Source: Oerskovia rustica | GTDB lineage: Bacteria; Actinomycetota; Actinomycetes; Actinomycetales; Cellulomonadaceae | Direction: 5' to 3' | Length of the DNA: 55,639 nucleotides | Assembly: GCF_014836555.1 (NCBI RefSeq) | Contig: NZ_JACSQQ010000016.1 | Span: forward strand, 48,706-104,344 | In this document: one piece after another, positions 17,413-42,323 of the stretch | How positions within the stretch are numbered: the first letter of the stretch is position 1 | Layout of the letters: every line of letters begins with the position of its first letter | The notes under the pieces: generated by a model | What the model was told of the DNA's origin: nothing | What the model saw: the letters and a program-made list of their open reading frames with translations, nothing else | Databases searched by the model: none | Position numbers and translations under genes: made by a program

Positions 17413-18930
17413 ATGGCCGGAAGCGTCATTCACGATTCGCGTCGTGGACTCCGCCACATCCTGACGACGGCGCAACCCGGGCCCCTTCGGGCGGTGCGCG
17501 CCGCGTTCGAGTCGGTCACGTGGGAGCGGTCGTACCGGATCCGCCTCGTCGTCACCGACTTCCTCGCGATCACGATCGGGGTCACCGCGGCGTACTTCCT
17601 GCGGTGGGACCAGTTCATCAGCCAGCCCGTCCGCGAGAACCTGTTCCTGCCCTACCTCGTGCTGAGCGTCCTGATCGGCGTCGCCTGGGCCGGCTCGCTC
17701 GCGTTCGCCAAGACGCGCGACGTGCGGGTCGTCGGCAGCGGGCCGACCGAGTACCAGCGGGTCTTCGACGCGTCCTGGCGACTCTTCGGCATCCTCGCGA
17801 TCCTCGCCTTCCTGCTGCGCTTCCAGGAGGCCCGCGGCTACCTGATCTTCGCGTTCCCGCTCGGCCTCGCCGGGCTGCTCCTGGGCCGCTACTTCTGGCG
17901 GCAGTGGCTGCACCGCAAGCGGGCCGTGGGTTCTCACCGGACCGCGGTCCTCGCGATCGGGCACCGGGACCAGGCCGAGCGCCTGATCCGCGACCTGAAC
18001 GAGCGGGACAGCTCCGGGTACCGGGTGGTCGCCGTGTGCACACCCAGCGGTCGCGCCGTTGAGGGTGACGCCATCCTGGGCGTGCCCGTCCTCGGAGACC
18101 TCCGCTCGGCAGGCGAGATCGCGGCGCGGGTCGGCGCCGGGTGCGTCGCGGTGAGCGGCTCGGACGCCGTGACCGCGGACGTCGTGCGCCACCTCAGCTG
18201 GGAGCTCGAGCCCTTCGGTGTCGACCTCATGCTGACGACCGAGCTGGTCGACGTCGCCGGACCCCGCATCACCATCACCCCGGCCGAGTCCGTGTCCCTC
18301 CTGCACGTCGACGCTCCTCGGTTCAGCGGCCCCAAGTTCGTGGTCAAGTCGATCTCGGACTGGTTCGGTGCGGCGATCCTGACGTTCCTCCTGTTGCCTG
18401 TCCTGATCGCGGTCGGGCTCGCGGTGCGGCTCACGAGCCGTGGACCGGTCTTCTACTCCCAGCAGCGCGTCGGGCGCAACGGCGAGACGTTCTCGATGCT
18501 CAAGTTCCGTTCCATGCGCGTCGGGTCCGACCTGGACCTCACCGCGCTCGCCGCGAACAACGAGGGGTCCGGGCCGCTCTTCAAGATCCGCAACGACCCT
18601 CGCGTCACGACCGTCGGCCGCTTCATCCGTCGCTACTCGCTCGACGAGCTGCCGCAGATCTTCAACGTCCTGCGGGGCGACATGAGCCTCGTGGGGCCCC
18701 GCCCGCCGCTGCCGCGCGAGGTCAGCACCTACGAGAAGAAGGTGCGCAGGCGCCTGCTCGTCAAGCCCGGCCTGACGGGACTGTGGCAGGTCGGTGGACG
18801 CTCGGACCTGTCCTGGGAGGAGAGCGTGCGCCTCGACGTCTACTACGTCGAGAACTGGACGTTGTTCGGCGACATCCTCATCCTGGCGCGCACGGCGAGA
18901 GCCGTCGTCTCCGGGCACGGGGCGTACTGA
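17413..18930 (+). CDS. Polyprenyl-phosphate sugar-1-phosphate transferase (WbaP/CpsE type)
   Basis: Predicted 505-residue membrane enzyme that transfers a sugar-1-phosphate from a nucleotide sugar to undecaprenyl phosphate, the first step of surface polysaccharide assembly. Layout: four to five N-terminal membrane helices (about 40-170), a CoA-binding-like Rossmann domain (about 175-300), one further helix near 320-345 and the C-terminal catalytic domain. Catalytic-domain motifs: FYSQQRVGRNGETFSMLKFR, DELPQIFNVLRGDMSLVGPR, KPGLTGLWQVGGRSDL. AGAGG lies 10 bases before the ATG. It stands first at the left edge of the glycopolymer locus; the sugar transferred cannot be told, though Glc-1-P, Gal-1-P or GlcNAc-1-P are usual. 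Confidence 0.92.
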   Translation: MAGSVIHDSRRGLRHILTTAQPGPLRAVRAAFESVTWERSYRIRLVVTDFLAITIGVTAAYFLRWDQFISQPVRENLFLPYLVLSVLIGVAWAGSLAFAKTRDVRVVGSGPTEYQRVFDASWRLFGILAILAFLLRFQEARGYLIFAFPLGLAGLLLGRYFWRQWLHRKRAVGSHRTAVLAIGHRDQAERLIRDLNERDSSGYRVVAVCTPSGRAVEGDAILGVPVLGDLRSAGEIAARVGAGCVAVSGSDAVTADVVRHLSWELEPFGVDLMLTTELVDVAGPRITITPAESVSLLHVDAPRFSGPKFVVKSISDWFGAAILTFLLLPVLIAVGLAVRLTSRGPVFYSQQRVGRNGETFSMLKFRSMRVGSDLDLTALAANNEGSGPLFKIRNDPRVTTVGRFIRRYSLDELPQIFNVLRGDMSLVGPRPPLPREVSTYEKKVRRRLLVKPGLTGLWQVGGRSDLSWEESVRLDVYYVENWTLFGDILILARTARAVVSGHGAY

Positions 18931-18953
18931 GCACTGCCGTCGCCGGGCTGCGC

Positions 18954-18992
18954 GCTCGGCGACGGGTGCTCGGCGACGGGCGCTCGGCGACC
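18954..18992. repeat. Short tandem repeat, 14-bp unit, about 2.8 copies
   Basis: The unit GCTCGGCGACGGGT/C occurs at 18954-18967, 18968-18981 and partly at 18982-18992, followed by CCGCCGACCC, which can pair with the repeat (CGGGTCGGCGG-like). It lies just after the sugar transferase stop and may fold as its terminator. Confidence 0.55.
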
Positions 18993-19057
18993 GCCGACCC
19001 GTGGGTGTCTGTCGGCGTGAGCCTTCCGCGTGTCGCGAGGCGGGACGTGACCGCGGA

Positions 19058-19076
19058 CACGTCACTAGCACGTCAC
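19058..19076. promoter_or_regulatory. Direct repeat CACGTCAC-TAG-CACGTCAC upstream of NCS2 permease
   Basis: Two identical octamers 3 bases apart, with an inverted partial copy (ACGTGAC) at about 19045 and GTGG following. They sit 47-65 bases before the permease ATG, a position suited to a regulator of purine uptake. Binding protein unknown. Confidence 0.4.
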
Positions 19077-19122: not shown

Positions 19123-20595
19123 ATGACCACCACGACTGACGAGCGCGAAGCCCCCCCGCGTTCCAGCGGCATCGACCGCTTCTTCAAGATCACCGAGCGC
19201 GGCTCGACCATCGGCGCCGAGATCCGTGGCGGTCTCGTCACGTTCTTCGCGATGTCCTACATCATCATCCTCAACCCGATCATCCTCGGGACGGCCCCCG
19301 ACGGTACGGGCCAGTTTCTGGGTGGCGGCGCGGACGGCGCGAACTTCCCGATGATCGCCGCGACCACGGCACTCGTCGCGGGCGTCATGACGATCGCGAT
19401 GGGCGTGTTCGCGAACTACCCCATGGCTCTCGCGGCCGGCCTCGGGCTGAACGCGGTCGTGGCCTTCACGATCGCGTCGATCCCCGAGGTCACGTGGGCC
19501 GACGCGATGGGCATCGTCGTCATCGAGGGCCTCATCATCCTGGTGCTCGTCCTCACGGGCTTCCGCGAGGCCGTCTTCCGTGCGGTCCCGGTCGAGCTGA
19601 AGACCGCGATCAGCGTGGGCATCGGCCTGTTCATCGCGCTCGTCGGCCTGGTCAACGCCGGGTTCGTCGCCGCGGGCGGCGGCACGCCGCTCCAGCTCGG
19701 CGCGACCGGTTCGCTCGCGGGCTGGCCGATCCTGGTCTTCGTCGTCGGCCTGGTCCTCATGATCGTCCTGTGGGTCCGCAAGGTCCGGGGCGCGATCCTC
19801 ATCTCGATCCTCGCCGCGACGGTCCTCGCAGTGGTCATCCAGGCGGTCGCGGGCGTCGGCACCAAGGGTGCGGGCGCGGCCAACGGGTGGAACCTCAACG
19901 CTCCTGAGCTCGACGGCAGCCCGGTCGCGGTCCCCGACTTCGGTCTGCTGGGTCAGTTCTCGCTGCTCGGGTCGATCGAGAAGGTCGGCATCGTCACGGT
20001 CGTCCTGCTCGTCTTCTCGCTCCTGCTCGCCGACTTCTTCGACACCATGGGCACCATGGTCGCGGTCGGTGCGGAGGGCAAGCTGCTCGACGAGACGGGC
20101 AACCCGCCGAAGTCGCGTGCGATCCTCATCGTCGACTCGGTCGCCGCGGCGGCCGGTGGCGCCGCGAGCGTCTCGTCCAACACGAGCTACGTCGAGTCCA
20201 CGACCGGCGTTGGCGAGGGCGCGCGCACGGGCCTCGCGGCCGTCGTGACGGGTATCGCCTTCCTGCTGGCGACGTTCCTTTCGCCGCTCGTCGCACTGGT
20301 CCCGAGCGAGGCCGCCGCGCCTGCGCTGGTCCTCGTCGGCTTCCTCATGATGACGCAGATCACGGGCATCAAGTGGACGAACGTCGAGGTCGCGATCCCC
20401 GCGTTCCTCACGATCGCCCTCATGCCCTTCACCTACTCGATCACCGCGGGCATCGGCGCGGGCTTCCTGGCCTTCGTGGTCATCAAGCTGGCGCTCGGCA
20501 AGGTCAAGGCGATCCACCCGCTCATGTGGGTCTCCGCGGTCGCGTTCATCATCTACTTCACCCTCGACCCGATCAGCGACGCCCTGGGCGTCTGA
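19123..20595 (+). CDS. NCS2 family purine permease (AzgA/PbuG type)
   Basis: Predicted 490-residue membrane protein with about 12-14 helices. The N-terminus FFKITERGSTIGAEIRGGL followed by TFFAMSYIIILNPIIL is the signature of AzgA/PbuG-like guanine/hypoxanthine/adenine permeases. Other family motifs: ADFFDTMGTMVAVG and SSNTSYVESTTGVGEGARTG in the substrate-binding half. No clear ribosome site precedes the ATG (CACCATTCTCCCC), so translation may depend on a short or absent leader. The purine role is unrelated to the surrounding polysaccharide genes; manA starts only 16 bases after its stop. Confidence 0.93.
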   Translation: MTTTTDEREAPPRSSGIDRFFKITERGSTIGAEIRGGLVTFFAMSYIIILNPIILGTAPDGTGQFLGGGADGANFPMIAATTALVAGVMTIAMGVFANYPMALAAGLGLNAVVAFTIASIPEVTWADAMGIVVIEGLIILVLVLTGFREAVFRAVPVELKTAISVGIGLFIALVGLVNAGFVAAGGGTPLQLGATGSLAGWPILVFVVGLVLMIVLWVRKVRGAILISILAATVLAVVIQAVAGVGTKGAGAANGWNLNAPELDGSPVAVPDFGLLGQFSLLGSIEKVGIVTVVLLVFSLLLADFFDTMGTMVAVGAEGKLLDETGNPPKSRAILIVDSVAAAAGGAASVSSNTSYVESTTGVGEGARTGLAAVVTGIAFLLATFLSPLVALVPSEAAAPALVLVGFLMMTQITGIKWTNVEVAIPAFLTIALMPFTYSITAGIGAGFLAFVVIKLALGKVKAIHPLMWVSAVAFIIYFTLDPISDALGV

Positions 20596-20611: not shown

Positions 20612-21889
20612 ATGAGCCTCCCGATCCTGCGCCTGACGCCCACCCTCCAGTCCTACGACTGGGGTTCGAGGAGCGCGCTGCACACGCTCCTGGGGTTGGA
20701 GCAGGACGGGGAGCCTCTCGCCGAGCTGTGGATGGGGGCACATCCGAAGGGCCCGTCGTCGGCTTCGGCCGACGGCGGGCCTTCGGCGTCCCTCGCGGAC
20801 CTGATCCGCAACGACCCGGTCCGGATGCTCGGGCAGCGTGTCCTCGACGACTACGGTCCACGACTGCCGTACCTGCTGAAGGTGCTCGCCGCGGAGCGCG
20901 CGCTGTCGTTGCAGGTCCACCCGCAGCCGCACCGGGCGCGTGCCGGGTTCAACCGGGAGAACCGCGAGGGCGTCCCTCGTGACTCGCCGGATCGCAGCTT
21001 CCACGACGACCAGCACAAGCCGGAGATGGTCGTGGCGGTCTCCCGGTTCGAGGGGCTCTCGGGCTTCCGTCGGCCGGTGCGGATCCTGGAGCTGCTGGAG
21101 GGGCTGAGCGGCGACCTGGTCGCCGCGATGAGGGCCGCGCTGGAGGCGCAGCGCTCGGCAGCGGGCCTGCGGGAGGCCTTCACGCTCGCCCTGCACGCGA
21201 GGACAGCGCCCGACGTCGCAGCCGACCTGGCATCGACCGTCGCCGACGTCCGGGCCCGCCTGGCAGCAGGTACGACGTCGCCGCGCGCCGACGCGACCGT
21301 GGTCGCTCTCGCGGAGCAGCACCCTGGAGACCCCGGGGCCGTGGTGTCGCTGATGCTGAACCGGGTCACGCTCGAGCCGGGGGAGTCGATGTTCGTCCCT
21401 GCCGGGCACGTGCACGCCTACCTGTCAGGGTGCGCGGTCGAGATCATGGCGAGCTCGGACAACGTGCTGCGCGCGGGGCTGACCAGCAAGCGTGTGGACG
21501 TCGAGTCGTTGCTGGCCTGCGTGACGTACGCCCCCGGGCCCGCGGCGCGGCCCCGGATCCGGCCGCTGGGGGCGGTCCCCGCACCGGGCCGCCGAGGCAT
21601 GCCCGCGGTGGAGACGGGACTGCGGGAGTACCGGGCGTCGATCGCGGAGTTCGCGCTGGTCATGGGCGAGGTCGGTGCCGAGGCCGTGCCGCTGCCTGCC
21701 GAGGGGCCGAGGATCGTCCTCGCGCTGGACGGAGACCTCGAGGTGGAGTGCCCGGACGATGCAGAAGGGGCACCGGGTGAATCCCTTCGCACCCGGCTGC
21801 GGGTGGGGGAGTCGGTCTTCGTCCCCCACGCTGCGGGAACGTTGTCGTTGCACGGATCTGGCCGGACGGTCGTCGCCTACGTGCCCTGA
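20612..21889 (+). CDS. manA: Mannose-6-phosphate isomerase, class I
   Basis: Predicted 425-residue zinc metalloenzyme interconverting fructose-6-P and mannose-6-P. Recognisable: QSYDWGSRSALHTLLG at the start, AELWMGAHPKGPS, LSLQVHPQPHRA (zinc-binding Gln-His), DDQHKPEMVVAVSRFEGLSGF (zinc-binding Glu), PAGHVHAYLSG (zinc-binding His) and a C-terminal cupin end. It supplies mannose-6-phosphate for GDP-mannose and mannosylated polymers. The gene follows the purine permease by 16 bp and may be partly read through from it. Length is usual for actinobacterial ManA. Confidence 0.95.
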   Translation: MSLPILRLTPTLQSYDWGSRSALHTLLGLEQDGEPLAELWMGAHPKGPSSASADGGPSASLADLIRNDPVRMLGQRVLDDYGPRLPYLLKVLAAERALSLQVHPQPHRARAGFNRENREGVPRDSPDRSFHDDQHKPEMVVAVSRFEGLSGFRRPVRILELLEGLSGDLVAAMRAALEAQRSAAGLREAFTLALHARTAPDVAADLASTVADVRARLAAGTTSPRADATVVALAEQHPGDPGAVVSLMLNRVTLEPGESMFVPAGHVHAYLSGCAVEIMASSDNVLRAGLTSKRVDVESLLACVTYAPGPAARPRIRPLGAVPAPGRRGMPAVETGLREYRASIAEFALVMGEVGAEAVPLPAEGPRIVLALDGDLEVECPDDAEGAPGESLRTRLRVGESVFVPHAAGTLSLHGSGRTVVAYVP

Positions 21890-22010: not shown

Positions 22011-23915
22011 ATGGCAGATGTGACGACTCGCAGGGGCGGGGGACTGGGCGCGGCGCGCCGAGCCCTCTGGCATCTTCGGCACGGCGGTGTGCCCCAGCTG
22101 CGGTCCTTCTTGCGTCGTCGGCGGGTCGTGTCCCCGGGGAGCGGGCGTAGGGCGTATCGCAGCGAAGACGGACTGACGTTCGACCCGTGGGACTCCTCGG
22201 ACCGTCGGCCGTCGCGGCCGGACCTGCGCGTCGGGGTGATCCTCGACGACTTCTCCCGTCTCGCGTTCGCGTTCGAGTGGGAGCAGGTGCTCCTCGAGCC
22301 CTCGACATGGCGTCGGGTGTTGGCCGACGAGCCGATCGATCTGCTCTTCGTCGAGTCGGCGTGGAACGGCAACGGCGGGGCCTGGCAGTACCACCTGACC
22401 GGTCCATCGGCGCCCATGCCCGATGTCGTGGAGCTGATCGCGTACTGCCGCGAGCAGGGCATCCCGACGGTCTTCTGGAACAAGGAGGACCCGGTCCACT
22501 TCGAGGACTTCCTCGACGCCGCGGCACTCTTCGACCAGGTCTGCACGACCGACGTCCACCGGGTGCCGGACTACGTCGAGCGGCTCGGTCACGACCGCGT
22601 GAGCGTTCTTCCCTTCGCTGCCCAGCCCGCGATCCACAACCCGGTGCGGGCGCACGGCCGTGGCCCGGAACGGGATGTCGCGTTCGGTGGCATGTACTTC
22701 GCCCACAAGTACCCCGAGCGACGCGAGCAGATGGATCTGCTCCTGGGCGGGGCGTTCGACGTCTCCTCGCGGATGGAGCACGGTCTCGAGATCTTCTCCC
22801 GCTTCCAGGGCGGGGACCCGAACTACCAGTTCCCGGAGCCGTTGGCCGGCCGGATCGTGGGGTCGCTCGACTACGAGCGGATGCTGACCGCGTACCGCGA
22901 GTACAAGGTGTTCCTCAACGTGAACTCGATCGTCGACTCCCCGAGCATGTGCGCTCGCCGGGTCTTCGAGATCACGGCCTGTGGCACACCGGTGGTGACG
23001 ACCCCGAGCCGCGCGATCGGTGAGTTCTTCCCCGCGGACGAGGTGTTCGTGGTCTCCGACCGGGCGGAGGCCGGGAACACGGTCCGGGCCCTCGTCAGAT
23101 CTGCGGAGATGCGTGATCGTGCGACCCACCTGGGCCAACGCAGGATCTGGCGAGAGCACACGTACGGGGCCCGCGTGCAGAGCGTCCTGCACGGTGTCGG
23201 CCTGGCTGACTCTCCCGTGGTGCCGCGTGCGTCGGTCACCGCCCTGGTCTCGACCAACCGGCCCCATCAGCTCGACCACGTCCTGCGCTCGGTCGGCGGC
23301 CAGGAGGACGTGGCGCTCCAGCTGGCTCTGTTGACCCACGGGTTCGATGTCGACGAGACAGACGTGCGGATGCGCGCCAAGGAGGCGGGTATCGAGGACC
23401 TGGTCCTCCTGACCGCAGGCTCCGAGGTACCGCTCGGAGGTTGCCTCAACCGCCTCGTCGCTGCAGCCGACGGCGACGTCGTCGCCAAGATGGACGACGA
23501 CGACCTGTACGGCGCGCAGTACCTCTCCGACCAGCTGTACGCCATGGCGTACAGCGGCGCCGAGGTCGTGGGCAAGCAGGCGCACTACATGTACGTCGAG
23601 GGCATGGACGCGACGCTGCTGCGGTTCGCGGAGCGGGAGCACCGGTTCACCGACTTCGTCATGGGGCCGACGATCGTCGCCCGTCGAGACCTCGCGGCGA
23701 CGACTCCGTTCCAGGGCGTGAGCCGCGGCGAGGACTCTGCCTTTCTCCGGGACGCCGTGGACGCGGGAGCCCGTGTCTTTTCGGCGGACCGCTTCAACTT
23801 CGTCCAGGTGCGCTCCGGGTCCGGTGCGCACACCTGGACGGTGTCCGACGCCGAGCTGCTTGCGAGCGGCGAGGTGCAGTTCTACGGGCGTGCTGATCAG
23901 CACGCCTCGTTCTGA
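22011..23915 (+). CDS. Two-domain glycosyltransferase (DUF3880/GT1-like + GT2)
   Basis: Predicted 634 residues. Residues of about 70-400 resemble CgeB/DUF3880-type glycosyltransferases (VGVILDDFSRLAFAFEW, IPTVFWNKEDPVHFEDFL, DQVCTTD, KVFLNVNSIVDSPSMCARRV, FEITACGTPVVTT). Residues of about 405-630 form a compact second transferase like GT2: VTALVSTNRPHQLDHVL, the metal-binding acidic cluster KMDDDDLYG, and GEDSAFLRDAV. It probably adds sugars to a cell-surface polymer at the cytoplasmic face of the membrane. ATG at 22011 directly follows GAGCCAGG; a GTG at 22020 with better spacing is an alternative. Followed after 19 bp by wecC. Confidence 0.85.
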   Translation: MADVTTRRGGGLGAARRALWHLRHGGVPQLRSFLRRRRVVSPGSGRRAYRSEDGLTFDPWDSSDRRPSRPDLRVGVILDDFSRLAFAFEWEQVLLEPSTWRRVLADEPIDLLFVESAWNGNGGAWQYHLTGPSAPMPDVVELIAYCREQGIPTVFWNKEDPVHFEDFLDAAALFDQVCTTDVHRVPDYVERLGHDRVSVLPFAAQPAIHNPVRAHGRGPERDVAFGGMYFAHKYPERREQMDLLLGGAFDVSSRMEHGLEIFSRFQGGDPNYQFPEPLAGRIVGSLDYERMLTAYREYKVFLNVNSIVDSPSMCARRVFEITACGTPVVTTPSRAIGEFFPADEVFVVSDRAEAGNTVRALVRSAEMRDRATHLGQRRIWREHTYGARVQSVLHGVGLADSPVVPRASVTALVSTNRPHQLDHVLRSVGGQEDVALQLALLTHGFDVDETDVRMRAKEAGIEDLVLLTAGSEVPLGGCLNRLVAAADGDVVAKMDDDDLYGAQYLSDQLYAMAYSGAEVVGKQAHYMYVEGMDATLLRFAEREHRFTDFVMGPTIVARRDLAATTPFQGVSRGEDSAFLRDAVDAGARVFSADRFNFVQVRSGSGAHTWTVSDAELLASGEVQFYGRADQHASF

Positions 23916-23934: not shown

Positions 23935-25203
23935 ATGGGCATCAGCTCGGTAGCGGTGATCGGACTGGGATACATCGGTCTCCCTACGGCAGCGATCCTG
24001 GCGTCGCAGGACGTCGGCGTCCTCGGCGTCGACGTCAACCAGCGGACCGTCGACGCCGTCAATCGCGGCGACGTGCCGTTCGTCGAGCCGGATCTCGCGA
24101 CGTACGTCGCGGGCGCCGTGACGCAGGGCAAGCTCAGTGCCGCGCTCACGCCTTCGCCGGCCGACGCCTTCATCGTGGCGGTCCCAACCCCCTTCACGGA
24201 CGACAGGAAGCCGGACCTCTCCTACATCCAGGCCGCAGCTCAGGCGATTGCCCCGCACCTGCAGGGGGGCGAGCTCCTGATCCTCGAGTCGACCTCCCCA
24301 CCCGGCACGACACAGCAGATGGCGGACTGGATCCTCGGTGCCCGTCCGGACCTGAGCCTGGACGGTTCGCAGGACCGTCCCGTCATTCATGTGGCGCACT
24401 GCCCTGAGCGCGTCCTCCCGGGCCGCGTCATGATCGAGCTCGTGACGAACGACCGGATCGTCGGCGGCCTGACGGTCGAGGCCGCCGAGCGCGCTCGTGA
24501 CCTCTACCAGCTGTTCTGCCAGGGCGAGATCCACCTGACGAACGCCGTCACCGCTGAGATGGCCAAGCTGGTCGAGAACTCGTTCCGTGACGTGAACATC
24601 GCCTTCGCCAACGAGCTCTCGGTGATCAGCGACAACCTCGGCATCGACGTCTGGGAACTGATCGATCTCGCGAACCACCATCCCCGTGTGAACATCTTGA
24701 AGCCGGGCGCCGGCGTCGGAGGGCACTGCATCGCTGTCGACCCGTGGTTCATCGTGGCATCGGACCCGAAGAACTCGAAGCTCATCAAGCGAGCACGCAA
24801 GGTCAACGACGCCAAGCCACGAAGGGTTGCCAGGCAGGTTGCCGGAATCGCGGAACGGGCGGGGCTGACGAGGATCACAGTTCTCGGGCTCGCGTTCAAG
24901 CCCAACATCGACGACATGCGAGAGTCTCCCGCGGTCCAGATCGTCGACAAGCTCGCGAGGCTCTGTCCCACGACCGAGCTGCTCGTCGTCGAGCCGCATG
25001 TCCGTTCGCTCCCCGCCAGGCTCTCCAGGCGCCCGAACGTCACCCTGGCCTCCCTCGACGAAGGGTTGGCCGGGGCCCAGCTCGTGGTGCACCTGGTCGA
25101 CCACGACGTCTTCCAGACCATCGACCCAGATGTCATGGGCGACGAGCGATTCATCAGCTTCTGTCGCCGGTCTCCCTCGGAGGATCGGCACACCCTTGCC
25201 TAG
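23935..25203 (+). CDS. wecC: UDP-N-acetyl-D-mannosamine dehydrogenase (WecC-like)
   Basis: Predicted 422-residue NAD-dependent UDP-sugar dehydrogenase oxidising C6 to a uronic acid. Motifs: Rossmann VAVIGLGYIGLPTAAILA, VAVPTPF, ESTSPPGTT, HCPERVLPGR, KLVENSFRDVNIAFANEL and the catalytic cysteine in GVGGHCIAVDPWF. The FRDVNIAFANEL and HCPERVLPG forms point to the UDP-ManNAc dehydrogenase branch rather than UDP-glucose dehydrogenase. ATG has AAGGAGAACGAAG upstream. The matching epimerase WecB is encoded at 34153-35325 on the other strand, so together they should make UDP-ManNAcA from UDP-GlcNAc. Confidence 0.9.
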   Translation: MGISSVAVIGLGYIGLPTAAILASQDVGVLGVDVNQRTVDAVNRGDVPFVEPDLATYVAGAVTQGKLSAALTPSPADAFIVAVPTPFTDDRKPDLSYIQAAAQAIAPHLQGGELLILESTSPPGTTQQMADWILGARPDLSLDGSQDRPVIHVAHCPERVLPGRVMIELVTNDRIVGGLTVEAAERARDLYQLFCQGEIHLTNAVTAEMAKLVENSFRDVNIAFANELSVISDNLGIDVWELIDLANHHPRVNILKPGAGVGGHCIAVDPWFIVASDPKNSKLIKRARKVNDAKPRRVARQVAGIAERAGLTRITVLGLAFKPNIDDMRESPAVQIVDKLARLCPTTELLVVEPHVRSLPARLSRRPNVTLASLDEGLAGAQLVVHLVDHDVFQTIDPDVMGDERFISFCRRSPSEDRHTLA

Positions 25204-28651: not shown

Positions 28652-28703
28652 GCATGCCACGACCCGTTGAAACAACTCAGTGAAGAACCTAGAGGATGAG
28701 CCA

Positions 28704-29093
28704 GTGAAGCGAGTTATCACCTACGGGACGTTCGACCTTCTGCACTACGGTCACATCAGACTGCTGGAGCGAGCCAAGGCGCAGGGCGACTACCTGATCG
28801 TCGCCCTCTCCACCGACGAGTTCAACGCCGGGAAGAACAAGAGGGCGTACTTCAGCTGGGAGGAGCGCCGAGGAATCCTCGAGGCGATCAGGTCGGTGGA
28901 CCTGGTGATCCCGGAGAAGACCTGGGAGCAGAAGGCGGAGGACATCGTCCGCTACCACGTCGACGTGCTCGTCATGGGGGACGACTGGGAAGGTAAGTTC
29001 GATGAGTTCTCGGACCTCTGTGAGGTCAAGTACCTTGCGCGTACCGCCGAAATCTCCACGAGCCAGATCAAGTCGGACCTCTCGACCCGCTAG
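28704..29093 (+). CDS. tagD: Glycerol-3-phosphate cytidylyltransferase
   Basis: Predicted 129 residues, the exact size of Bacillus TagD. It makes CDP-glycerol from CTP and sn-glycerol-3-phosphate. Motifs: ITYGTFDLLHYGHIRLLERA with the HxGH nucleotide-binding site, DYLIVALSTDEFNAGKNK, and the RTAEISTSQIK signature near the C-terminus. GTG start preceded by AGAGG; a second GTG 24 bases upstream is unlikely because homology begins at VKRVITYG. Its product feeds both TagF-like fusion proteins of the locus. Confidence 0.95.
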   Translation: MKRVITYGTFDLLHYGHIRLLERAKAQGDYLIVALSTDEFNAGKNKRAYFSWEERRGILEAIRSVDLVIPEKTWEQKAEDIVRYHVDVLVMGDDWEGKFDEFSDLCEVKYLARTAEISTSQIKSDLSTR

Positions 29094-29190
29094 CACTGCG
29101 GCGGGAGGGCGCGTTGATGCACCGCCCCGGATGGCACGGGAGCCTATCGCCATCCAGGGTGAGGGGTTCGGGGCGCCCCAGGTCGACGAC

Positions 29191-29236
29191 GACGGGCCGG
29201 ACTGCACGAGATGAGTCCCGTGCAGTCCCGCCCGTC
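29191..29236. terminator. Bidirectional terminator hairpin between convergent halves of the locus
   Basis: Arms at 29191-29211 and 29216-29236 pair over 21 bp with two mismatches around a TGAG loop. It lies between tagD (plus) and the XcbB-like gene (minus), 98 bases after the tagD stop and 19 before the other stop. A second small hairpin, GGATGGC...GCCATCC, lies at 29129-29155. Confidence 0.75.
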
Positions 29237-29254
29237 AAGCTCTTGGCGGGCCCG

Positions 29255-34142: not shown

Positions 34143-34152
34143 CTGGATCGTC

Positions 34153-35327: not shown

Positions 35328-36260
35328 CTACCTGCTCTCTTCTGTGTCTCGGGTGCTCTTCCGCTGCCCTCGGACGTGGCGTGGGGTGTAGAACTTCCCC
35401 GGTGGCTCTTCGATCTTGACGAAGGTGTCCTCGCGCTCTCGGAGCGCTTCTTCGATGATGGTTTTGGCTTCTTCGGGCTTGTCCTTGGCGATCGCCCACG
35501 CCCACTTGCGGTAGCGCAGGGCGACGTCCTCGGCGGGGCCGTCCAGGATGAGGCGACCGTGGTTGAGCCAGATCGCGCGGGTGCACGTCTCCTCGATGGT
35601 CTGTGCGGCGTGGCTCACCAGGAAGACGGTTCCGGCGTTCTCACGGAGCTTCTCCATCCGCACCTCGCTACGCTCCTTGAACGCGGCGTCACCCGTGGCG
35701 AGCGCCTCGTCGATCAGCAGGATGTCCGGGTTCGCCGCCGTCGCGATGGCGAAGCGGAGACGGGACCCCATGCCGGACGAGTACGTCTTCATGGGGAGGT
35801 AGATCGACTTGCCGAGTCCGGCGAGCCGGATGACGTCGGGCACCGCCAGGGCGGTCTCCTCGGGGGAGAGTCCCATGGCGAGGCAGCCGAGCCTGACGTT
35901 CTGCTCACCGGAGAGGTCGGGGACGAGGGCCGCGTTGACGCCGATCAGGACGGGGCTGCTCTCGGCGAGCACCTGGCCGCGTGCAGGCTTCTCGAGCCCG
36001 GCGATGATCCGCAGCAGGGTGCTCTTGCCCGACCCGTTCTGACCGACGATGCCGATCTGCTCACCGGACCGGGCGACGAAGGAGATGCCGGCGAGCGCGC
36101 GGACGATGACCATGGGCTGACGCCCCATCAGCGTCCTTGCCGCGCGGGTCAGCCGGTTGGAGCGCCGCCGCTCGGCCGCGTCCGTCGACGGGACGCGGTA
36201 TCGCACGTGGACGTCCTGGACCGCGACCGTGGCCGTGGCGAACGGGTCAGAGGCGACCAT
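35328..36260 (-). CDS. ABC exporter ATP-binding protein, teichoic acid/O-antigen type
   Basis: Predicted 310 residues. The ABC signature residues are Walker A GQNGSGKST, signature YSSGMGSRLRFA and Walker B ILLIDEALATGD, followed by the LVSHAAQTIEETCTRAIWL switch region. The KTYSSGM and DEALATGD forms are those of TagH/RfbE/Wzt polysaccharide exporters, as is the N-terminal VHVRYRVPS insert before the core domain. No large C-terminal carbohydrate-binding domain is present. Start overlaps the end of the permease gene by 14 bases. It energises export of lipid-linked polymer by the TagG-like permease. Confidence 0.93.
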   Translation of the reverse strand: MVASDPFATATVAVQDVHVRYRVPSTDAAERRRSNRLTRAARTLMGRQPMVIVRALAGISFVARSGEQIGIVGQNGSGKSTLLRIIAGLEKPARGQVLAESSPVLIGVNAALVPDLSGEQNVRLGCLAMGLSPEETALAVPDVIRLAGLGKSIYLPMKTYSSGMGSRLRFAIATAANPDILLIDEALATGDAAFKERSEVRMEKLRENAGTVFLVSHAAQTIEETCTRAIWLNHGRLILDGPAEDVALRYRKWAWAIAKDKPEEAKTIIEEALREREDTFVKIEEPPGKFYTPRHVRGQRKSTRDTEESR

Positions 36261-37188
36261 ACGATTCCTCCCCCTGCCAGAACACCAGGAAGCCCACGAT
36301 CACGGTGCCGAACGCCCACGCACTCAGGGCGAGCCACATCGAGCCGGCCGGGGTCTCGCCATAGAGGAGACAGTCGCGCACCATGTCCAGCACCATGAAC
36401 ATGGGGTTGGCCTCCATGAGCGACAGGACGGTCGGGTGGTCGATGAACCGCTCGTAGGAGAAGAAGACCGCCGAACCGTAGAGCCACAGCCGCATCGCGA
36501 ACGAGATGAGCTGGTTGAGGTCGGGGACCTTGGCGGCTGCGCGCGCGAGCAGCAGTGCGAGCCCGGTGCAGAAGACCACCTGGAGCGCCAGCACCCCAGG
36601 GACCAGCAGCACCCGCCATGTGATGGCCTCGGTCGGCGGCAGGACGAGGAGGATCGCGACCATCGCCCCGAGGACCGGAACCATGTTGAGCATCTCGCGC
36701 AGGATGACGGAGATGGGGAGCGCGGCTCGGGGAAACGCGAACGCACGGATGAGGTTCCGCCCGGCGGTGATGGAGCGGGCACCGCCCGTGACGCAACGCG
36801 TCGTGAAGGCGAAGAGGAAGACCCCGACGATCAGGTAACCCAGGAAGTTCTCGATCCCCCGCGAGGACTTGAGCAGCAGCCCGAAGATCAGGAAGTACGT
36901 GAGCCCGTCCAGAACCGGCTTGAGCACGAGCCACGCCGTGCCGAGCAGTGTCTCCCGGGTACCGCTCGTGACCTTGGCCCGGGCGTCGGCCCACAGGAAG
37001 TGGCGCCGGCCCCAGAGCTGGGAGACGTACTCGCCGAGCGGTGGCCGTGCTCCGACCCGCGTCAGGCGCCCTGCCGAGATGACCTCGATCTTGGTCTCGG
37101 GCCCCTGGAAGAGCATCGCGTAGAGATCCGCGGGGCTGGCCTTCCCCTCCGTCTGCCCGGTCGTCGGGGCCTTCGATGCTGCGGTCAT
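36247..37188 (-). CDS. ABC exporter permease, TagG/Wzm-like
   Basis: Predicted 313 residues with an N-terminal cytoplasmic part of about 85 residues and six membrane helices. WADARAKVTSGTRETLLGTAW and LVLKPVLDGLTYFLIFGLLL fit the ABC2 permeases of teichoic acid and O-antigen export, and EANPMFMVLDMVRDCLLYG is the typical loop before the last helices. ATG at 37188 overlaps the stop of the upstream GT4 gene (ATGA). It forms a complex with the ATPase encoded next and moves the completed lipid-linked chain across the membrane. Confidence 0.92.
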   Translation of the reverse strand: MTAASKAPTTGQTEGKASPADLYAMLFQGPETKIEVISAGRLTRVGARPPLGEYVSQLWGRRHFLWADARAKVTSGTRETLLGTAWLVLKPVLDGLTYFLIFGLLLKSSRGIENFLGYLIVGVFLFAFTTRCVTGGARSITAGRNLIRAFAFPRAALPISVILREMLNMVPVLGAMVAILLVLPPTEAITWRVLLVPGVLALQVVFCTGLALLLARAAAKVPDLNQLISFAMRLWLYGSAVFFSYERFIDHPTVLSLMEANPMFMVLDMVRDCLLYGETPAGSMWLALSAWAFGTVIVGFLVFWQGEESYGRL

Positions 37189-38933
37189 GAGGCGAATCCT
37201 AGGCAACGTCGGTAGATGCTCCGGTATGCGTCCGCGTTCTTCGCCCAGGTGCGCTCGCTCGCGAGTGCTCGACCTCGGGTGACGAGCTCCTCCGCGAGTG
37301 CCGCGTCGTGGTGCAGCGACTCGATCGTGTCGGCCCATGCGTCGACGTCGTCCGGGGCGACGAGGAGGCCGCCACGGGGAGCGTCGAGCACCTCGGCGAG
37401 AGCGGGCAGGTCGCTCGCGACCACGGGCCTGCCGATCGCCATGGCCTCGACGGGCTTGAGCGGCGTGACCAGCCGTGTCACGCGGTCGTCGCGGCGCGGC
37501 ACGAGGAACACGTCGAGCGCCGCCATGTAGAGGGAGGCCTGCTCGTGCGGCACCCGTCCCGGGAGGATCGCGTGCGCGCCCAGCCCCAGCTCGTCGGCGA
37601 GGCGCACGAGCGAGGGCCGGGAGACGCCGTCGCCCACGACGAGCGCGGTCGCGTCGACGCCTCGCTGCCGGAGGAGCGCGACGGCGCGCAGGATCGTGTC
37701 GTGCCCCTCGTACCCGACGAGGCTGCTCACGGTGCCGACGACGAACGCGGCCTCGGGCAGCCCCAGCGCCGCCCGGGCGGCGTCGGGGGCCGGGTGCTCC
37801 GACAGGAGCGAGGACCGCACGGCGTTCGGCACGACCGAGATCCGCTCGGCCGGTACGCCGCGGGAGACGAGCTCGTCGCGCATGGTCGCGCTCAGGGTCA
37901 CGACGGCGTCCGCGGACGTCGCGAGCTCGGTCTCCTTGGCGCGGAGCAACGCCCGGCGCTCGGAGCGCTCCGCGGCCTCGCGGGCCTCGGGCGTCCCGTG
38001 CGAGGCGACCCAGGTCTCCTCGGGCAGGCCGCGCACCTCGTAGACCCACGGGATCCCCAGGCGTCGCGCCGCTGCGCGGGTGACGTCCCCGTTGGTCCCG
38101 GGGGTCGTGGTGTGCAGGAGGTCGGGGGCGAAGTCCTCCGCGGACCGGACGAGCAGGTCGGTCGCGTCCGCGAACCGTCGGGCGGGATCGTTCGGCAGCC
38201 TGGACGGGATCAGTCGTCGGTACGGGATCCCGTCGACGACGTCGACCCCCCGGGCGGTCAACGACCCGATGGTCACCGGGTAGCCGGCCCGGGTGGTGGC
38301 TTCGACCCGCATCCCCGCGTCCCGCTGGGCCGTGAGGACCGCGTGGCTGCGCAGGGTGTACCCGCTCTGGGTGTGCGGCAACGAGTTGGTGAGGTGGTGC
38401 AGCACGGCGAGCGTCGCCGTCGGGCCGGGAGAGGCGGCAGGTCGCTCGCGGGGTGCGACCTCCGCGCGCGGCGCGAGGGCGTCGACCTGACCCAGCAGGC
38501 TCGCGAGGACGCGGCGCTCGGCGCGGCCCGACGCCCGTGCCGCGCGCAGGGCAGCGACGTCGCCCCGCTGCCACAAGGCGCGCAGGTGCGCAGGTCCGGG
38601 GGAGGGGAAAGCGTCCAGAAGGTCGGGACGCCCGACGGCGACGGCCACCTCGCCCCCGATCCGCGACCGCCCGCCGGACGACTCGAGGAGTCGGGTCGAC
38701 TCGTCGGCAGCACCGGCGGAGTCGCCCGCGAGGTAGCGCGAGAGAGCGCGCGGCGCCGACGGGGACGGTGCCAGGCCCAGGGCGCGCACGGCGCCGGCCC
38801 GGACCCGGGCGGGGGAGCGCCGCACGGCCTGGATCAGGAGCCAGACCGGGTCGTCGACGAGCGCGCGCGTCCCGAAGGACAGGGCGAACCGGACGTTGCG
38901 GGTGAGGTCCCGCACGGCGGACGGGCGGCTCAT
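37185..38933 (-). CDS. GT4 glycosyltransferase with N-terminal extension
   Basis: Predicted 582 residues. The first 170 form an Ala/Arg/Leu-rich helical extension (DDPVWLLIQAVRRSPARVRA) of unknown role. From about 175 a GT4 fold begins: LAVLHHLTNSLPHTQSGYTL (glycine-loop region), DLLHTTTPGTNG, ISVVPNAV, VGTVSSLVGYEGHDTILRA, VVGDGVSRPSL, and the donor-binding TPLKPVEAMAIGRPVVAS, where the second Glu of the usual EX7E motif is in EAM. Start ATG overlaps the stop of the upstream glycosyltransferase by four bases. Part of the minus-strand export and assembly operon. Confidence 0.88.
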   Translation of the reverse strand: MSRPSAVRDLTRNVRFALSFGTRALVDDPVWLLIQAVRRSPARVRAGAVRALGLAPSPSAPRALSRYLAGDSAGAADESTRLLESSGGRSRIGGEVAVAVGRPDLLDAFPSPGPAHLRALWQRGDVAALRAARASGRAERRVLASLLGQVDALAPRAEVAPRERPAASPGPTATLAVLHHLTNSLPHTQSGYTLRSHAVLTAQRDAGMRVEATTRAGYPVTIGSLTARGVDVVDGIPYRRLIPSRLPNDPARRFADATDLLVRSAEDFAPDLLHTTTPGTNGDVTRAAARRLGIPWVYEVRGLPEETWVASHGTPEAREAAERSERRALLRAKETELATSADAVVTLSATMRDELVSRGVPAERISVVPNAVRSSLLSEHPAPDAARAALGLPEAAFVVGTVSSLVGYEGHDTILRAVALLRQRGVDATALVVGDGVSRPSLVRLADELGLGAHAILPGRVPHEQASLYMAALDVFLVPRRDDRVTRLVTPLKPVEAMAIGRPVVASDLPALAEVLDAPRGGLLVAPDDVDAWADTIESLHHDAALAEELVTRGRALASERTWAKNADAYRSIYRRCLGFAS

Positions 38934-40234
38934 CGGGCCAGGTCGTCGAGCAGGGCGAGGTACGTCGCGGCGAGGACGTCGTCGTTCGCATGGATCGCGA
39001 CCCACGCGCTGGCGGCACGGCTCGCGACGGGGGCGACCCCGGACTCCGCATAGCCGGCCCAGAGGTTCGCCAGCGCCTCGACGTCCCCGGGTGGCACGAC
39101 GTCCCCCGCCTCGAGCGCGAGGACGAGCTCGGCCGACTCTCCCGCGACGCACGCGGTGACGTGGTGCCCCGAGGCCATGACCTCGTACAGCTTCGAGGGC
39201 ACGGTCCACTGGAAGGGCTCCCAGTCACGGAGCGAGACCACGAGGGTGTCCGCCCACTCGTACAGGGCCTCGATCTCGGTGTGGGGGATCGGCGGCCCGA
39301 CCGTCACCGGCGCTCCCAACGAACGAGCGAGTGCTGCGAGCTGTGCCGCGTCGTTGCCTGCTCCGACGATCCGGACCTCGATCGGCAGCCCGCGCGACTC
39401 GACCACCGCAGCGGCACGCACCGCGACCTCGAGACCCTGTGACCTGCCGAGCGTGCCTGCGTAGACGACGCGGAACGGCCGCGGCTCGAGGTCGGTCCCC
39501 GGCACCACTACGGGACGGCTGACCACGGGGAAGGCCGTGCCGTTGCGCACGACCGCGACGTTGCGGGCACCACGGGAACGGAGGACGTCGGCGAACGTCT
39601 CCGTCGTGGTCACCACCAGGTCCGCGCGCGACTGCAACCGCGTGATGACCCGGTGGGCGAGCGTCGTCGCGAAGGCGCGACCGGGACGGCGCTGGGCGAG
39701 CGAACCGGTCATGATCCCGCTCGGCCGGATGAGGTCGGGCCAGGCGTCGCGCATCTCGACCACCAGGGCCGCGCGGAAGATCCGCGCGAGCGCCCAGGCC
39801 GCGAACATGCTCGGGATCCCGGGCACGGTCCCGATCACGACGGTCGGGCGGTGGGTGCGCCGGCGCAGGCGCCGCAGACCCAGCCCGATCGAGCTGATGG
39901 CGGCCACCAGGTGGTCCGCGGTGCGTGAGACCAGGCCGGTCGTGTGCTCCCGGTAGTGCACCCGGATGATGCGCTCACCGTGCGCGCCGCGGGAGACGGT
40001 CCCCGGGCGCAGCTCGGCGGAGCCCGGAGCGAGGGTGCCCGACGGGTAGTGCGGAGGGGGGGTCAGCACGCTCACGTCGACACCCGCACTGACGAACCGG
40101 GCGACGAGAGCCCCCCAACGGCGCTGCGGCGCACCGGTCTCGGGGGCGTAGTGATGGGTCACCAGGAGGACGTGATGCCCCGACGACGGCTTCCGTCGCG
40201 CGCGGAGCGCTCCCCTCGTGCGGCGGCGGTCCAT
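38930..40234 (-). CDS. GT4 glycosyltransferase (WbuB/WcaI-like)
   Basis: Predicted 434 residues. N-terminal lobe HHVLLVTHHYAPETGAPQRR and DVSVLTPPPHYPSG are typical of WbuB/WcaI-like GT4 enzymes, often acting on ManNAc, GlcNAc or fucose acceptors. Also VVIGTVPGIPSMFAAWALAR, VEMRDAWPDLI, VVYAGTLGRSQGLEVAV, and C-terminal VPSKLYEVMASG. The acidic donor motif is present in YEVMASG. Starts at ATG 40234 or 40270 are possible; the first has AGGGGGAC immediately before it. First gene of the minus-strand operon that continues through the second GT4, TagG, TagH, WecB, TPR-TagF-GT4 and the XcbB-like protein. Confidence 0.88.
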   Translation of the reverse strand: MDRRRTRGALRARRKPSSGHHVLLVTHHYAPETGAPQRRWGALVARFVSAGVDVSVLTPPPHYPSGTLAPGSAELRPGTVSRGAHGERIIRVHYREHTTGLVSRTADHLVAAISSIGLGLRRLRRRTHRPTVVIGTVPGIPSMFAAWALARIFRAALVVEMRDAWPDLIRPSGIMTGSLAQRRPGRAFATTLAHRVITRLQSRADLVVTTTETFADVLRSRGARNVAVVRNGTAFPVVSRPVVVPGTDLEPRPFRVVYAGTLGRSQGLEVAVRAAAVVESRGLPIEVRIVGAGNDAAQLAALARSLGAPVTVGPPIPHTEIEALYEWADTLVVSLRDWEPFQWTVPSKLYEVMASGHHVTACVAGESAELVLALEAGDVVPPGDVEALANLWAGYAESGVAPVASRAASAWVAIHANDDVLAATYLALLDDLAR

Positions 40235-40350
40235 GTCCCCCTGATTTCCCTCGGCAGTGTGGGAGGACATCGGTCGGCACAGCCCGCTCGCCTTCACGTA
40301 TCGGGCGAAATGGCGTACGGAAGTCCCACGTTCTCTCGCTAAACCTCCAC

Positions 40351-40380
40351 ATTCTATCGCTGTGGTGGGTGTCCGAACGA
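40351..40380 (-). promoter_or_regulatory. Probable promoter of minus-strand glycopolymer operon
   Basis: On the minus strand TAGAAT (plus 40351-40356) is preceded at 16 bases by GTTCGG, giving a plausible sigma-70 type promoter for the seven-gene minus operon with a leader of about 110 bases. The 233-bp divergent region (40235-40467) between the GT4 and LCP genes holds nothing else I recognise. Confidence 0.45.
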
Positions 40381-40455
40381 AACACCCGTGCTGCTCAGGG
40401 GGTGAAGAGGTGCGCGAAGGGCGGGATTCCGGGCCCGAGCGATCGCCGGGTACCT

Positions 40456-40467
40456 TAGGATGCAACC
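40456..40467 (+). promoter_or_regulatory. TAGGAT -10 box placing the LCP start codon near +1
   Basis: TAGGAT at 40456-40461 ends six bases before the GTG of the LCP gene and no ribosome site is present, which suggests a leaderless transcript. A -35 element is not evident. Confidence 0.4.
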
Positions 40468-41571
40468 GTGTCTGGCAACGAGCAGCTCCCGGTCGGGACC
40501 GAGTCCACCCCTGATCCGCGCGACGTGAGCCCTGGCCGTCGTCACGTGCGCAAGCGCAAGAACAGGACGAGGACCACCCTCATCGTCCTGGGTGCCCTGG
40601 TCGCCGTGATCTGCCTCGGGGGCTTCGCCGCGGTCGTCGCGTTCCGGCAGAGCCTCGACCAGAACATCGAGAAGCTCGCCGACCCCTTCGCGGACATCAA
40701 GGACCGTCCGGCGCCGGCGCCGACGAACCCCGATGCCTCCAACGAAGCGGTCAACATCCTCGTCCTCGGCTCGGACAGCCGGATCTCGGCGGGCGATCCC
40801 TCGCAGTGGCAGGCCGGTGCCCAGCGCACCGACGCGATCATGCTCGTCCACCTGCCGGCGGACAGGAAGTCGGCACAGGTCGTCTCGTTCCCGCGCGACA
40901 GCTGGGTGCCGATCCCCGGGCACGGCGAGGCCAAGATCAACGCGGCCTTCTCCTACGGCGGGCCGGCCCTCATGATCGAGACCGTCGAGCAGCTCACGGG
41001 TGTGCGGATCGACCACTTCGCACTGACCGACTTCACGTCCTTCACGACGCTCACCGATGCTCTGGGCGGCGTGCTGATCCGCATCCCCGAGGACATCGGT
41101 GACGGGAAGAAGGTCCAGTTCACGGCGGGTGTGCACAACATGTCCGGCGAGGAGGCCCTCGCCTACACGCGCCAGCGCCACGGTCTGGCCAACGGCGACT
41201 TCGGCCGCGCGCAGCGCCAGCAGAACTGGATGCGATCGATCCTCGCGAAGGTCAACAACAACCGTAACGACGTGCCGATGATGACGTCCTTCTTCAAGGC
41301 GTTCAGCGAGTCCGTGGCGGTCGACGAGGGGCTGACCATGGATCGGATCCAGGCCCTCTACATGAGCGCGCGCGGCCTGTCGACCAACGACGTCGTCTTC
41401 CTCACCGCGCCGCACAACGGCACGGGGCGCTCCGCCGACGGGCAGTCGATCGTCGTGCTGAACCGAGAGCTGCTCGACCCGCTCATGGCGTCCTTCGCGA
41501 CCGACACGGCGGCGCCGTTCGTCGAGGAGCACAAGGCAGAGCTCGCGGTGCTCCCACCCACGGTGAAGTGA
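40468..41571 (+). CDS. LCP (LytR-CpsA-Psr) family glycopolymer ligase
   Basis: Predicted 367 residues. A basic cytoplasmic N-terminus (HVRKRKNRTRTT) precedes one membrane helix (LIVLGALVAVICLGGFAAVV), then the extracellular LCP domain: VNILVLGSDSR, QRTDAIMLVHLPADRKSAQV, SFPRDSWVPIPGHGEAKINA, ALTDFTSFTTLTDALGG, GEEALAYTRQRH and the Arg/Asp residues that bind the polyprenyl pyrophosphate. LCP enzymes attach wall teichoic acids, capsules or arabinogalactan to peptidoglycan. It is encoded divergently from the assembly operon, so it most likely performs the final ligation. Its stop overlaps the GTG of the DUF6270 gene. Confidence 0.95.
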   Translation: MSGNEQLPVGTESTPDPRDVSPGRRHVRKRKNRTRTTLIVLGALVAVICLGGFAAVVAFRQSLDQNIEKLADPFADIKDRPAPAPTNPDASNEAVNILVLGSDSRISAGDPSQWQAGAQRTDAIMLVHLPADRKSAQVVSFPRDSWVPIPGHGEAKINAAFSYGGPALMIETVEQLTGVRIDHFALTDFTSFTTLTDALGGVLIRIPEDIGDGKKVQFTAGVHNMSGEEALAYTRQRHGLANGDFGRAQRQQNWMRSILAKVNNNRNDVPMMTSFFKAFSESVAVDEGLTMDRIQALYMSARGLSTNDVVFLTAPHNGTGRSADGQSIVVLNRELLDPLMASFATDTAAPFVEEHKAELAVLPPTVK

Positions 41572-42323
41572 CCGAACACGCGGTACCTTCCGGTGCCGGT
41601 GCTCGTACGGTCCTGATCCACGGCAGCTGTGTCACCCGTGACGCCTTCGCGTTGCCGGGCGAGCCGAGGTTTCGGCTCGCCGACTACTACGCGCGCAGCT
41701 CGCTCGCGAGCGCCTTCGCCGACCACGGCCTGGAGGGGGTCGACACCGCGGTCATCCCGTCGGCCTTCCAGCGGCGCATGGTCGAACGGGATCTGACCAA
41801 GACGTTCTGGCGGGCGATGCCCACGGTGCAGGCGGACGTGATCGTCGTCGACCTCGTCGACGAGCGGTTCGGGATCCTGGTGGACGACCGCGCCGGCGTC
41901 GGGACGCCGTCGGCCGAGCTCCTCCGCGCCGGGGGACTCTCGCCCGAGCTCCACCGCGTCGCCCCCGGGTCCGTCGACTTCCTGATGGCCTGGGAGGCCG
42001 GTCGTCGTCGATTCATGGCCGAGGCACGGGCGGCCGGCCTGGTGGAGCGCATCGTCGTGCACCAGGCGCGCTGGGCCGAGCTGTGTGCCGACGGGACCCG
42101 GTTCGACTACCAGGCGTCGGCCGAGGCGAACCACCTGCTCGAGTACATGTACGGGCGGCTGCGGCTGGACCTTGCGCCGCACCAGTTCGTGCGTGTGCCG
42201 GCGCACCTCGTGGTGGGCGACCCCGACCACAGGTGGGGTCGTTCGCCGGTGCACTACGTCGAGGAGTACTACCGGTCCTTCCTCGACCTGCTCGACCGAG
42301 CGACGGCGTCGCCCCGCCGCTGA
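41568..42323 (+). CDS. DUF6270 family protein
   Basis: Predicted 251 residues, soluble, no signal peptide. The N-terminal VLIHGSCVTRDAFAL and the C-terminal DHRWGRSPVHYVEEYY are the two conserved ends of DUF6270. A nucleophile-like Ser near the first strand and an Asp-x-x-x-x-His-like end resemble the layout of SGNH hydrolases, but this is inference from motif placement only. GTG start overlaps the LCP stop (GTGA), so the two are translationally coupled and the protein probably acts on the same polymer. Reaction unknown. Confidence 0.75.
   Translation: MTEHAVPSGAGARTVLIHGSCVTRDAFALPGEPRFRLADYYARSSLASAFADHGLEGVDTAVIPSAFQRRMVERDLTKTFWRAMPTVQADVIVVDLVDERFGILVDDRAGVGTPSAELLRAGGLSPELHRVAPGSVDFLMAWEAGRRRFMAEARAAGLVERIVVHQARWAELCADGTRFDYQASAEANHLLEYMYGRLRLDLAPHQFVRVPAHLVVGDPDHRWGRSPVHYVEEYYRSFLDLLDRATASPRR

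Follow-up and report, generated by a model that had tools for sequence, protein, structure and literature searches.

In the Cps3D and Cps7D group 2 capsule polymerases of Actinobacillus pleuropneumoniae, a TPR domain is followed by a TagF domain and by a GT-B glycosyltransferase (GT) domain of family GT4 (PMC5974469, PMC8262930, PMC11666461). According to the available parts of two of these sources, CpsD in two characterised systems alternates glycerol phosphate with alpha-galactose, CpsB supplies cytidine diphosphate (CDP)-glycerol, and a linker is added to a conserved glycolipid by transition transferases distinct from these, the exporter being believed to recognise this glycolipid (PMC11666461, PMC8262930). 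In actinobacteria, the accessible text of one report gives glucose and N-acetylmannosaminuronic acid (ManNAcA) as the sugars of Micrococcus luteus teichuronic acid, with ManNAcA in the main-chain repeat and a phosphate-containing linker oligosaccharide to the wall (PMC3005890), and that of another describes in Streptomyces griseus (utr genes) a teichuronic-like chain of 2,3-diacetamido-2,3-dideoxymannuronic acid (ManNAc3NAcA) on ribitol teichoic acid, the teichuronic part being the outer one (PMC13274773). Here we describe an island of wall-glycopolymer genes that joins three fields, those of ManNAcA teichuronic polymers, glycerol teichoic acids and Gram-negative TagF-like capsule polymerases. 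It lies in a 55,639-nucleotide stretch of the Oerskovia rustica genome, hereafter the window (RefSeq assembly GCF_014836555.1, contig NZ_JACSQQ010000016.1, positions 48,706 to 104,344 of the forward strand). The island consists of a chassis (wecC, wecB, exporter, GTs, an LCP-family gene and a DUF6270 gene) with a TagF/TagD/CpsF cassette between wecC and wecB, and it probably builds a cell-wall polymer made up of an exchangeable glycerol-phosphate chain on conserved ManNAcA-using machinery.

The proteins of the window were searched against Pfam and NCBIfam, with curated cut-offs where available. The chassis begins with a GT used hereafter as its marker (22011..23915, plus strand), which combines a CgeB-like GT domain (PF13524, E=1.1e-20) with a GT2-like domain (weak PF00535) whose DDDD motif occupies invariant columns in 7 aligned sequences. 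It is followed by WecC, the dehydrogenase of uridine diphosphate (UDP)-N-acetylmannosamine (ManNAc) (23935..25203, plus strand; PRK11064, 563.8 bits, cut-off 459), in which a GGHC motif invariant across the aligned homologues is found. On the other side of the cassette lie, all on the minus strand, WecB, a non-hydrolysing UDP-N-acetylglucosamine 2-epimerase (34153..35325; TIGR00236, 458.7 bits, cut-off 210.15), a TagH-like ABC exporter ATPase (35328..36260; PF00005), a TagG/Wzm-like permease (36247..37188; PF01061, E=2.3e-07) and two GT4-family transferases, GT4a (37185..38933; PF13692, E=4.6e-27) and GT4b (38930..40465; PF13692, E=1.5e-13; true start probably internal). These are followed on the plus strand by an LCP-family glycopolymer ligase (40468..41571; PF03816, E=3.5e-47) and, as the right chassis end, by a DUF6270 protein (41568..42323; PF19786, E=3.8e-58). 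The cassette itself comprises a plus-strand giant of GT2-middle-TagF (GT-A/TagF) architecture (25196..28651; PF00535, E=4e-34; PF04464, E=2.1e-62), the glycerol-3-phosphate cytidylyltransferase TagD (28680..29093, plus strand; TIGR01518, 187.2 bits, cut-off 165.4), an XcbB/CpsF-family protein (29255..30301, minus strand) and a minus-strand TPR-TagF-GT4 giant of 1355 residues (30294..34142; PF04464, E=7e-73). The likely starts within the long frames are 23935 for wecC, ~25196 and 34142 for the first and second giant, 30301 for the XcbB/CpsF gene and 35325 for wecB. A preliminary description of this DNA, made from the sequence alone, had listed WecB, WecC, TagD, two TagF-domain giants, a TagGH exporter, a priming transferase (17413..18930, plus strand; PF02397, E=6.3e-66) and an LCP ligase. 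The three enzymes, all above their curated cut-offs, the two giants with motifs intact, the priming transferase and the ligase were all borne out. The exporter is indeed a pair of the TagGH/Wzm-Wzt kind, but the best named models were not passed, with 189.1 bits against 538 for the ATPase (PRK13545) and 54.8 against 380 for the permease (galactan_ABC_perm likewise below its cut-off). Absent from that list were the XcbB/CpsF-family gene, the CgeB/GT2-like GT at 22011-23915, the two GT4 genes and DUF6270.

Oerskovia genomes either carry the island as one block between manA and marR or lack it entirely. Its site was located in all 7 Oerskovia genomes via the adjoining permease, and the neighbourhoods of other genomes were compared. 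In two of the seven (G005 and G002) manA and marR are 51 and 98 bases apart, respectively; that is, the whole block is absent, with the Bac_transf transferase, the permease and manA present. Since these three genes (17.4-21.9 kb) are kept in both island-less sisters, they are flanking core genes. The preliminary description, which had opened the block at 17413, therefore needs correction, the island proper running from 22011 to 42323 (~20 kb). Two further genomes (G003 and G001) possess the marker GT, wecC, wecB, the exporter, both GT4 genes, LCP and DUF6270, with no TagF or TagD in the fetched stretch; in G004 the contig ends after the marker, wecC and another marker-like gene. The third state, a chassis with the TagF/TagD cassette between wecC and wecB, is that of the window and of G006, taken as O. 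turbata, the species that also gives the best WecC match in named genomes (92%; L008). The seven genomes thus divide into two without the island, three with a chassis lacking TagF at the site (one partly seen) and two with the TagF cassette. No TagF was found in the whole genomes of G002, G003, G004 and G005, and the 3 TagF matches of G001 all lie elsewhere than the island: in the loci L134 and L135, its contig C3 has TagF-like genes and its contig C44 another one as well as a TagGH-like pair. Instead of TagF, the alternative cassettes of G003, G001 and an Isoptericola locus (L010) contain transferases of the GT2/CgeB type together with DUF6270, a second sugar dehydrogenase and a weak heparinase-like match.

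The two halves of the island, chassis and cassette, could each make a polymer of its own, the first a teichuronic acid with ManNAcA and the second a glycerol teichoic acid, and would then share exporter and ligase or be mere neighbours. Bacillus subtilis makes both teichuronic and teichoic polymers, and several relatives carry TagD and TagF away from the WecC chassis (in G048, TagD at ~3.44 Mb and the chassis at ~0.69 Mb). However, the island has a single exporter pair and a single LCP, both Oerskovia genomes with TagF at this site have the cassette placed between wecC and wecB, and the 2 TagF matches, 1 TagD and 1 WecC of the O. rustica genome (the latter two counted above cut-off) are all at this locus, with no others elsewhere. 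We hold two polymers to be quite unlikely. As to whether the two halves belong to unrelated loci, which the preliminary description had named as a possible objection, they recur together in other families of the order but are separable between genomes.

A ~10-kb cassette (24800..34750, borders approximate, from sliding DNA identity against sister genomes) appears to have been exchanged, because identity to the sister genomes breaks off within both wecC and wecB; judging by this pattern, it looks like homologous exchange via these two genes. On the left side, identity to G003, G001 and G004 is 70-93% across the marker GT and on through two thirds of wecC; it then drops from about 76-93% to 58-59%, beginning at 24.8 kb, and to 41-48%, beginning at 25.0 kb, leaving the 3′ third of wecC on the cassette side. 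On the right side, where the break lies in the 3′ half of wecB, identity to G003 and G001 starts at 33-35% (34.15 kb), runs at 66-72% up to 34.75 kb and stays at 78-92% from that point to 36.35 kb, the climb between 34.15 and 34.75 kb reaching 81-83%. No break was seen against G006, the control with the same cassette (80-93% left, 74-94% right). The last third of the WecC protein diverges too, and WecC of the window and of O. turbata lacks a C-terminal DTRG motif common to 6 other aligned homologues, because the cassette border falls inside wecC. The G+C content of the cassette is low (tagD 0.599, cpsF 0.595, TPR giant 0.604, GT2-TagF 0.658), compared with 0.68-0.785 in the flanks.

Within the cassette, the minus-strand giant is, from its sequence, a Cps3D-type TagF-like capsule polymerase. 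It matches A. pleuropneumoniae Cps3D (PDB 8qoy) with 547 bits (E=8.5e-163) over both catalytic domains, has the same domain order (TPR, PF04464, PF00534), and shows the motifs WHGTP, FRMHH and DFSS on the 8qoy alignment; this alignment was read short of the end of the GT4 part, which was judged by the motifs GRLSTEK and EX7E. Judged by eye on this alignment, 10 of the 11 CgoT residues given in the available text of PMC11666461 are kept, the exception being F391, replaced by Y. Among 296 genomes of the class (at most 3 candidates scored per listed genome), the best relative, in G185, reached 589 bits and the next best four 311-344 bits. With 589 bits for G185 against 547 for Cps3D, the minus-strand giant is therefore about equally close to a gammaproteobacterial polymerase and to the best other-family actinobacterial relative found. 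The plus-strand giant, with PF00535 followed by PF04464, has its TagF part nearest to Staphylococcus epidermidis TagF (3l7i, E=1e-59) and the motifs WHGVP, RSHH and DYSS; we infer that it is the chain starter. The XcbB/CpsF-family protein had 9hvz, an XcbB/CpsF family capsular polysaccharide biosynthesis protein, as its sole solved-structure match up to E=1 (E=5.6e-38), and may be a polymer acetyltransferase. A GT-A/TagF enzyme, TagD (their CpsB) and an XcbB/CpsF-family gene are thus all shared with the Cps3D/Cps7D systems. What differs is the Gram-positive actinobacterial host and the chassis with WecB/WecC, a TagGH-like exporter and LCP. Moreover, no poly-3-deoxy-D-manno-octulosonic acid anchor genes, as in Gram-negative group 2 capsules, are among the Pfam matches of the block.

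The preliminary description had proposed that one locus builds a teichoic/teichuronic hybrid. This stands insofar as the supply of both UDP-ManNAcA and CDP-glycerol is encoded here; the halves are separable, however, and the chassis mostly occurs without TagF nearby. In its strictest form the proposal would place ManNAcA and glycerol phosphate together in one repeating unit, in keeping with the two sets of precursor genes sharing one block and with the ManNAcA of the M. luteus main chain, as described in the accessible text (PMC3005890); the second GT domain of TagF-like polymerases could in principle accept another sugar. Yet wecC and wecB are kept where the whole polymerase cassette differs, so that ManNAcA does not follow the repeat-making genes, and galactose is the sugar used by the closest relative of the main polymerase with a solved structure, according to the available part of PMC11666461. 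Such a repeat is fairly unlikely, and because the halves are separable a ManNAcA stem bearing a variable glycerol-phosphate chain is the better reading.

The extent of the chassis was surveyed in 198 genomes of the order, with a threshold of E<=1e-20 for the marker GT, which was found in 46 of them. A long marker GT occurs in 35 genomes and WecC above cut-off in 39; both occur in 34, within 30 kb of each other in 32, leaving 5 genomes with WecC and no long marker and 1 with the converse. The 30 best neighbourhoods besides that of the O. rustica genome were compared, 15 genomes with weaker markers being left out, and presence was called at bit thresholds of our choice; the stretches of G114, G134 and G162 end at contig ends. 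Counted besides G006, wecC is present in 27 of the 30 (the other 3 are at contig ends), tagG/tagH in 28, GT4a in 26, wecB and DUF6270 in 25 each, GT4b in 24 and LCP in 15, with TagF in 5 and TagD in 3. TagF lies within 25 kb in at least 6 of the 40 chassis genomes. TagD occurs in 22 genomes, 16 of them with the chassis (Fisher P=1.5e-8), but 10 of these 16 belong to one genus and the association is not used as evidence. In G185, of another family, wecC, GT2-TagF, tagD and TPR-TagF-GT4 recur together with the exporter and GTs seen here; G025 carries tagD along with two genes each of the GT2-TagF and the CpsF-like kind; and in the Arthrobacter loci L013 and L014 a GT2-TagF gene comes after wecC. 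A shared pathway is reasonable, since both halves recur together in other families of the order. The preliminary description had asked for other genomes that keep wecB, wecC, tagD and both fusion genes together: the O. turbata cassette answers this, as does G185 for wecC, tagD and both fusions, with the qualification that wecB is not in the fetched stretch of G185 and that TagF and TagD are found in 5 and 3 of the 30 neighbourhoods, respectively.

The family of G201 (assumed from Arthrobacter synteny to be Micrococcaceae, unconfirmed) has the marker in 45 of 120 genomes, and a marker-like GT was found in 1 of 27 non-actinobacterial loci (L018, among L016-L042). A chassis of the Arthrobacter type was also seen in a contig filed as the Bacillota species Sporosarcina beigongshangi (L012); its identity to the window is 40-66%, similar to that of the Arthrobacter loci. 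In contig C1 of G134 the marker GT appears with equal score near 7.3 kb and 4.01 Mb of 4.02 Mb, which looks like an untrimmed circular overlap. In G192, TagD above cut-off lies ~4 kb from the marker GT and WecC (C3, 44604), and the TagF genes among the matches listed are on another contig.

WecB-type epimerases also act in the synthesis of classic wall teichoic acid, where they provide the ManNAc of the linkage unit, and WecB and WecC might accordingly belong to an ordinary ManNAc-N-acetylglucosamine linkage unit or to some other pathway, with WecC incidental. This we regard as very improbable. WecC is not incidental, because 34 of the 35 long-marker genomes carry it, and no protein of the WecG/TagA family (GT26, PF03808) was found in the whole O. 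rustica genome, as compared with 7 of 14 control genomes. It follows that there is no classic teichoic-acid linkage unit; membership in the classic wall teichoic acid linkage pathway was rejected on the absence of TagA, despite TagD and two PF04464 proteins. Enterobacterial common antigen, one of the ManNAcA polymers with which the preliminary description had compared the locus, was rejected as well: WecB and WecC exceed their cut-offs, but the comparison fails at the transferase, the genome having no WecG/GT26 protein. Candidates for priming are the core Bac_transf enzyme at 17413 and two PF00953 proteins elsewhere in the genome.

The simplest reading of these results places ManNAc(A) in a constant stem at the reducing end and lets the cassette set a variable glycerol-phosphate chain: wecB and wecC stay with the exporter, the ligase and the GTs when the cassette changes. 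We consider it moderately probable that the island, as a conserved chassis with an exchangeable polymerase cassette, yields a type-II-like teichoic acid on a ManNAcA-containing stem. WecB and WecC would supply UDP-ManNAcA, either the core transferase at 17413 or a WecA-type enzyme encoded elsewhere would load undecaprenyl phosphate with a primer, and the conserved GTs would build a stem containing ManNAc(A). The GT2-TagF giant might then begin the chain on this stem, and with CDP-glycerol provided by TagD the TPR-TagF-GT4 giant would alternate glycerol phosphate with an alpha-linked hexose, giving a poly(glycosyl-glycerol phosphate), which the CpsF-family and DUF6270 proteins may decorate. Finally, the TagGH-like exporter would recognise the conserved stem and move the polymer outward, and LCP would join it to peptidoglycan. 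A wider proposal, which we advance tentatively, is that an order-wide ManNAcA stem, recognised by the TagGH-like exporter and LCP, acts as a common adaptor for interchangeable polymers, and that Oerskovia has switched polymer by recombination in wecC and wecB, one cassette type carrying a Gram-negative-style capsule polymerase. A constant stem with an exchangeable chain would be a testable rule for actinobacterial walls, comparable to capsule serotype loci.

Several points weigh against the stem-and-chain reading. The position of ManNAcA in the molecule is one that we infer, and the conserved GTs might equally well produce a main chain containing ManNAcA, to which the cassette could add side chains or a block. 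The genome has no GT26 protein as a UDP-ManNAcA-using transferase, and the conserved GT group is where the missing enzyme is to be sought. The exporter scores lie under the cut-offs of the named models. Furthermore, only a minority of the chassis neighbourhoods contain TagF (5 of the 30), in modest excess over chance (5 genomes where 1.14 would be expected; P=0.006, or 0.03 if the weak case G082 is left out; relatedness not controlled).

Set beside Bacillota wall teichoic acid (Tag/Tar) systems, the locus shares TagD, TagF domains, a TagGH-like exporter, an LCP ligase and WecB, the exporter being of the right kind with scores below the named-model cut-offs. It differs in that the genome has no TagA-family protein, the polymerases are GT fusions, WecC is present and the adjoining priming transferase is of the Bac_transf type. 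A Bacillus-type TuaD UDP-glucose dehydrogenase was not found at the locus, where the dehydrogenase scores 139.9 bits against a cut-off of 700 (563.8 on the UDP-ManNAc dehydrogenase model). With M. luteus teichuronic acid the locus shares UDP-ManNAcA supply through WecB and WecC, whereas that polymer, as described in the accessible part of its report, is without glycerol phosphate (PMC3005890). The S. griseus conjugate resembles it as an actinobacterial wall uronic-acid/teichoic system with core genes and a content variable between species, to go by the accessible text (PMC13274773). Unlike S. griseus utr, no ManNAc3NAcA genes (sugar aminotransferase, oxidase, N-acetyltransferase) are among the Pfam results of the block proteins, the rest of the genome being outside that search. 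The statement in the preliminary description that teichoic and teichuronic families usually do not occur together has a published exception in S. griseus, according to the part of the source at hand, and because that conjugate is published the hybrid idea has a precedent (PMC13274773). The suggestion of a new actinobacterial wall polymer loses some of its novelty for the same reason, and keeps some in the gene combination: no literature describing an actinobacterial WecB/WecC chassis that carries TagF-like capsule polymerases was found in a search that left subscription journals mostly outside. Most actinobacterial wall chemistry is printed in such journals.

On the left of the island, the core flank consists of the polyprenyl-phosphate sugar-1-phosphate transferase already mentioned as candidate primer (Bac_transf and CoA_binding_3; TIGR03025 above cut-off), a xanthine/uracil-type permease (19123..20595, plus strand; PF00860) with 94-99% identity in 6 other Oerskovia genomes, and the mannose-6-phosphate isomerase ManA (20612..21889, plus strand; TIGR00218 above cut-off), which forms the left border. 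Mobile-element borders were rejected, as there is no tRNA in the window and no words of >=10 bases are shared by the two island ends. On the right, DUF6270 and marR are separated by a 159-residue frame of coding-like base composition and without a Pfam match (42368-42847, minus strand). The spacer between manA and marR is too short to hold it in either empty-site genome, and the gap between DUF6270 and marR is only ~0.2 kb in G003; if this frame is counted, the island perhaps extends to 42847.

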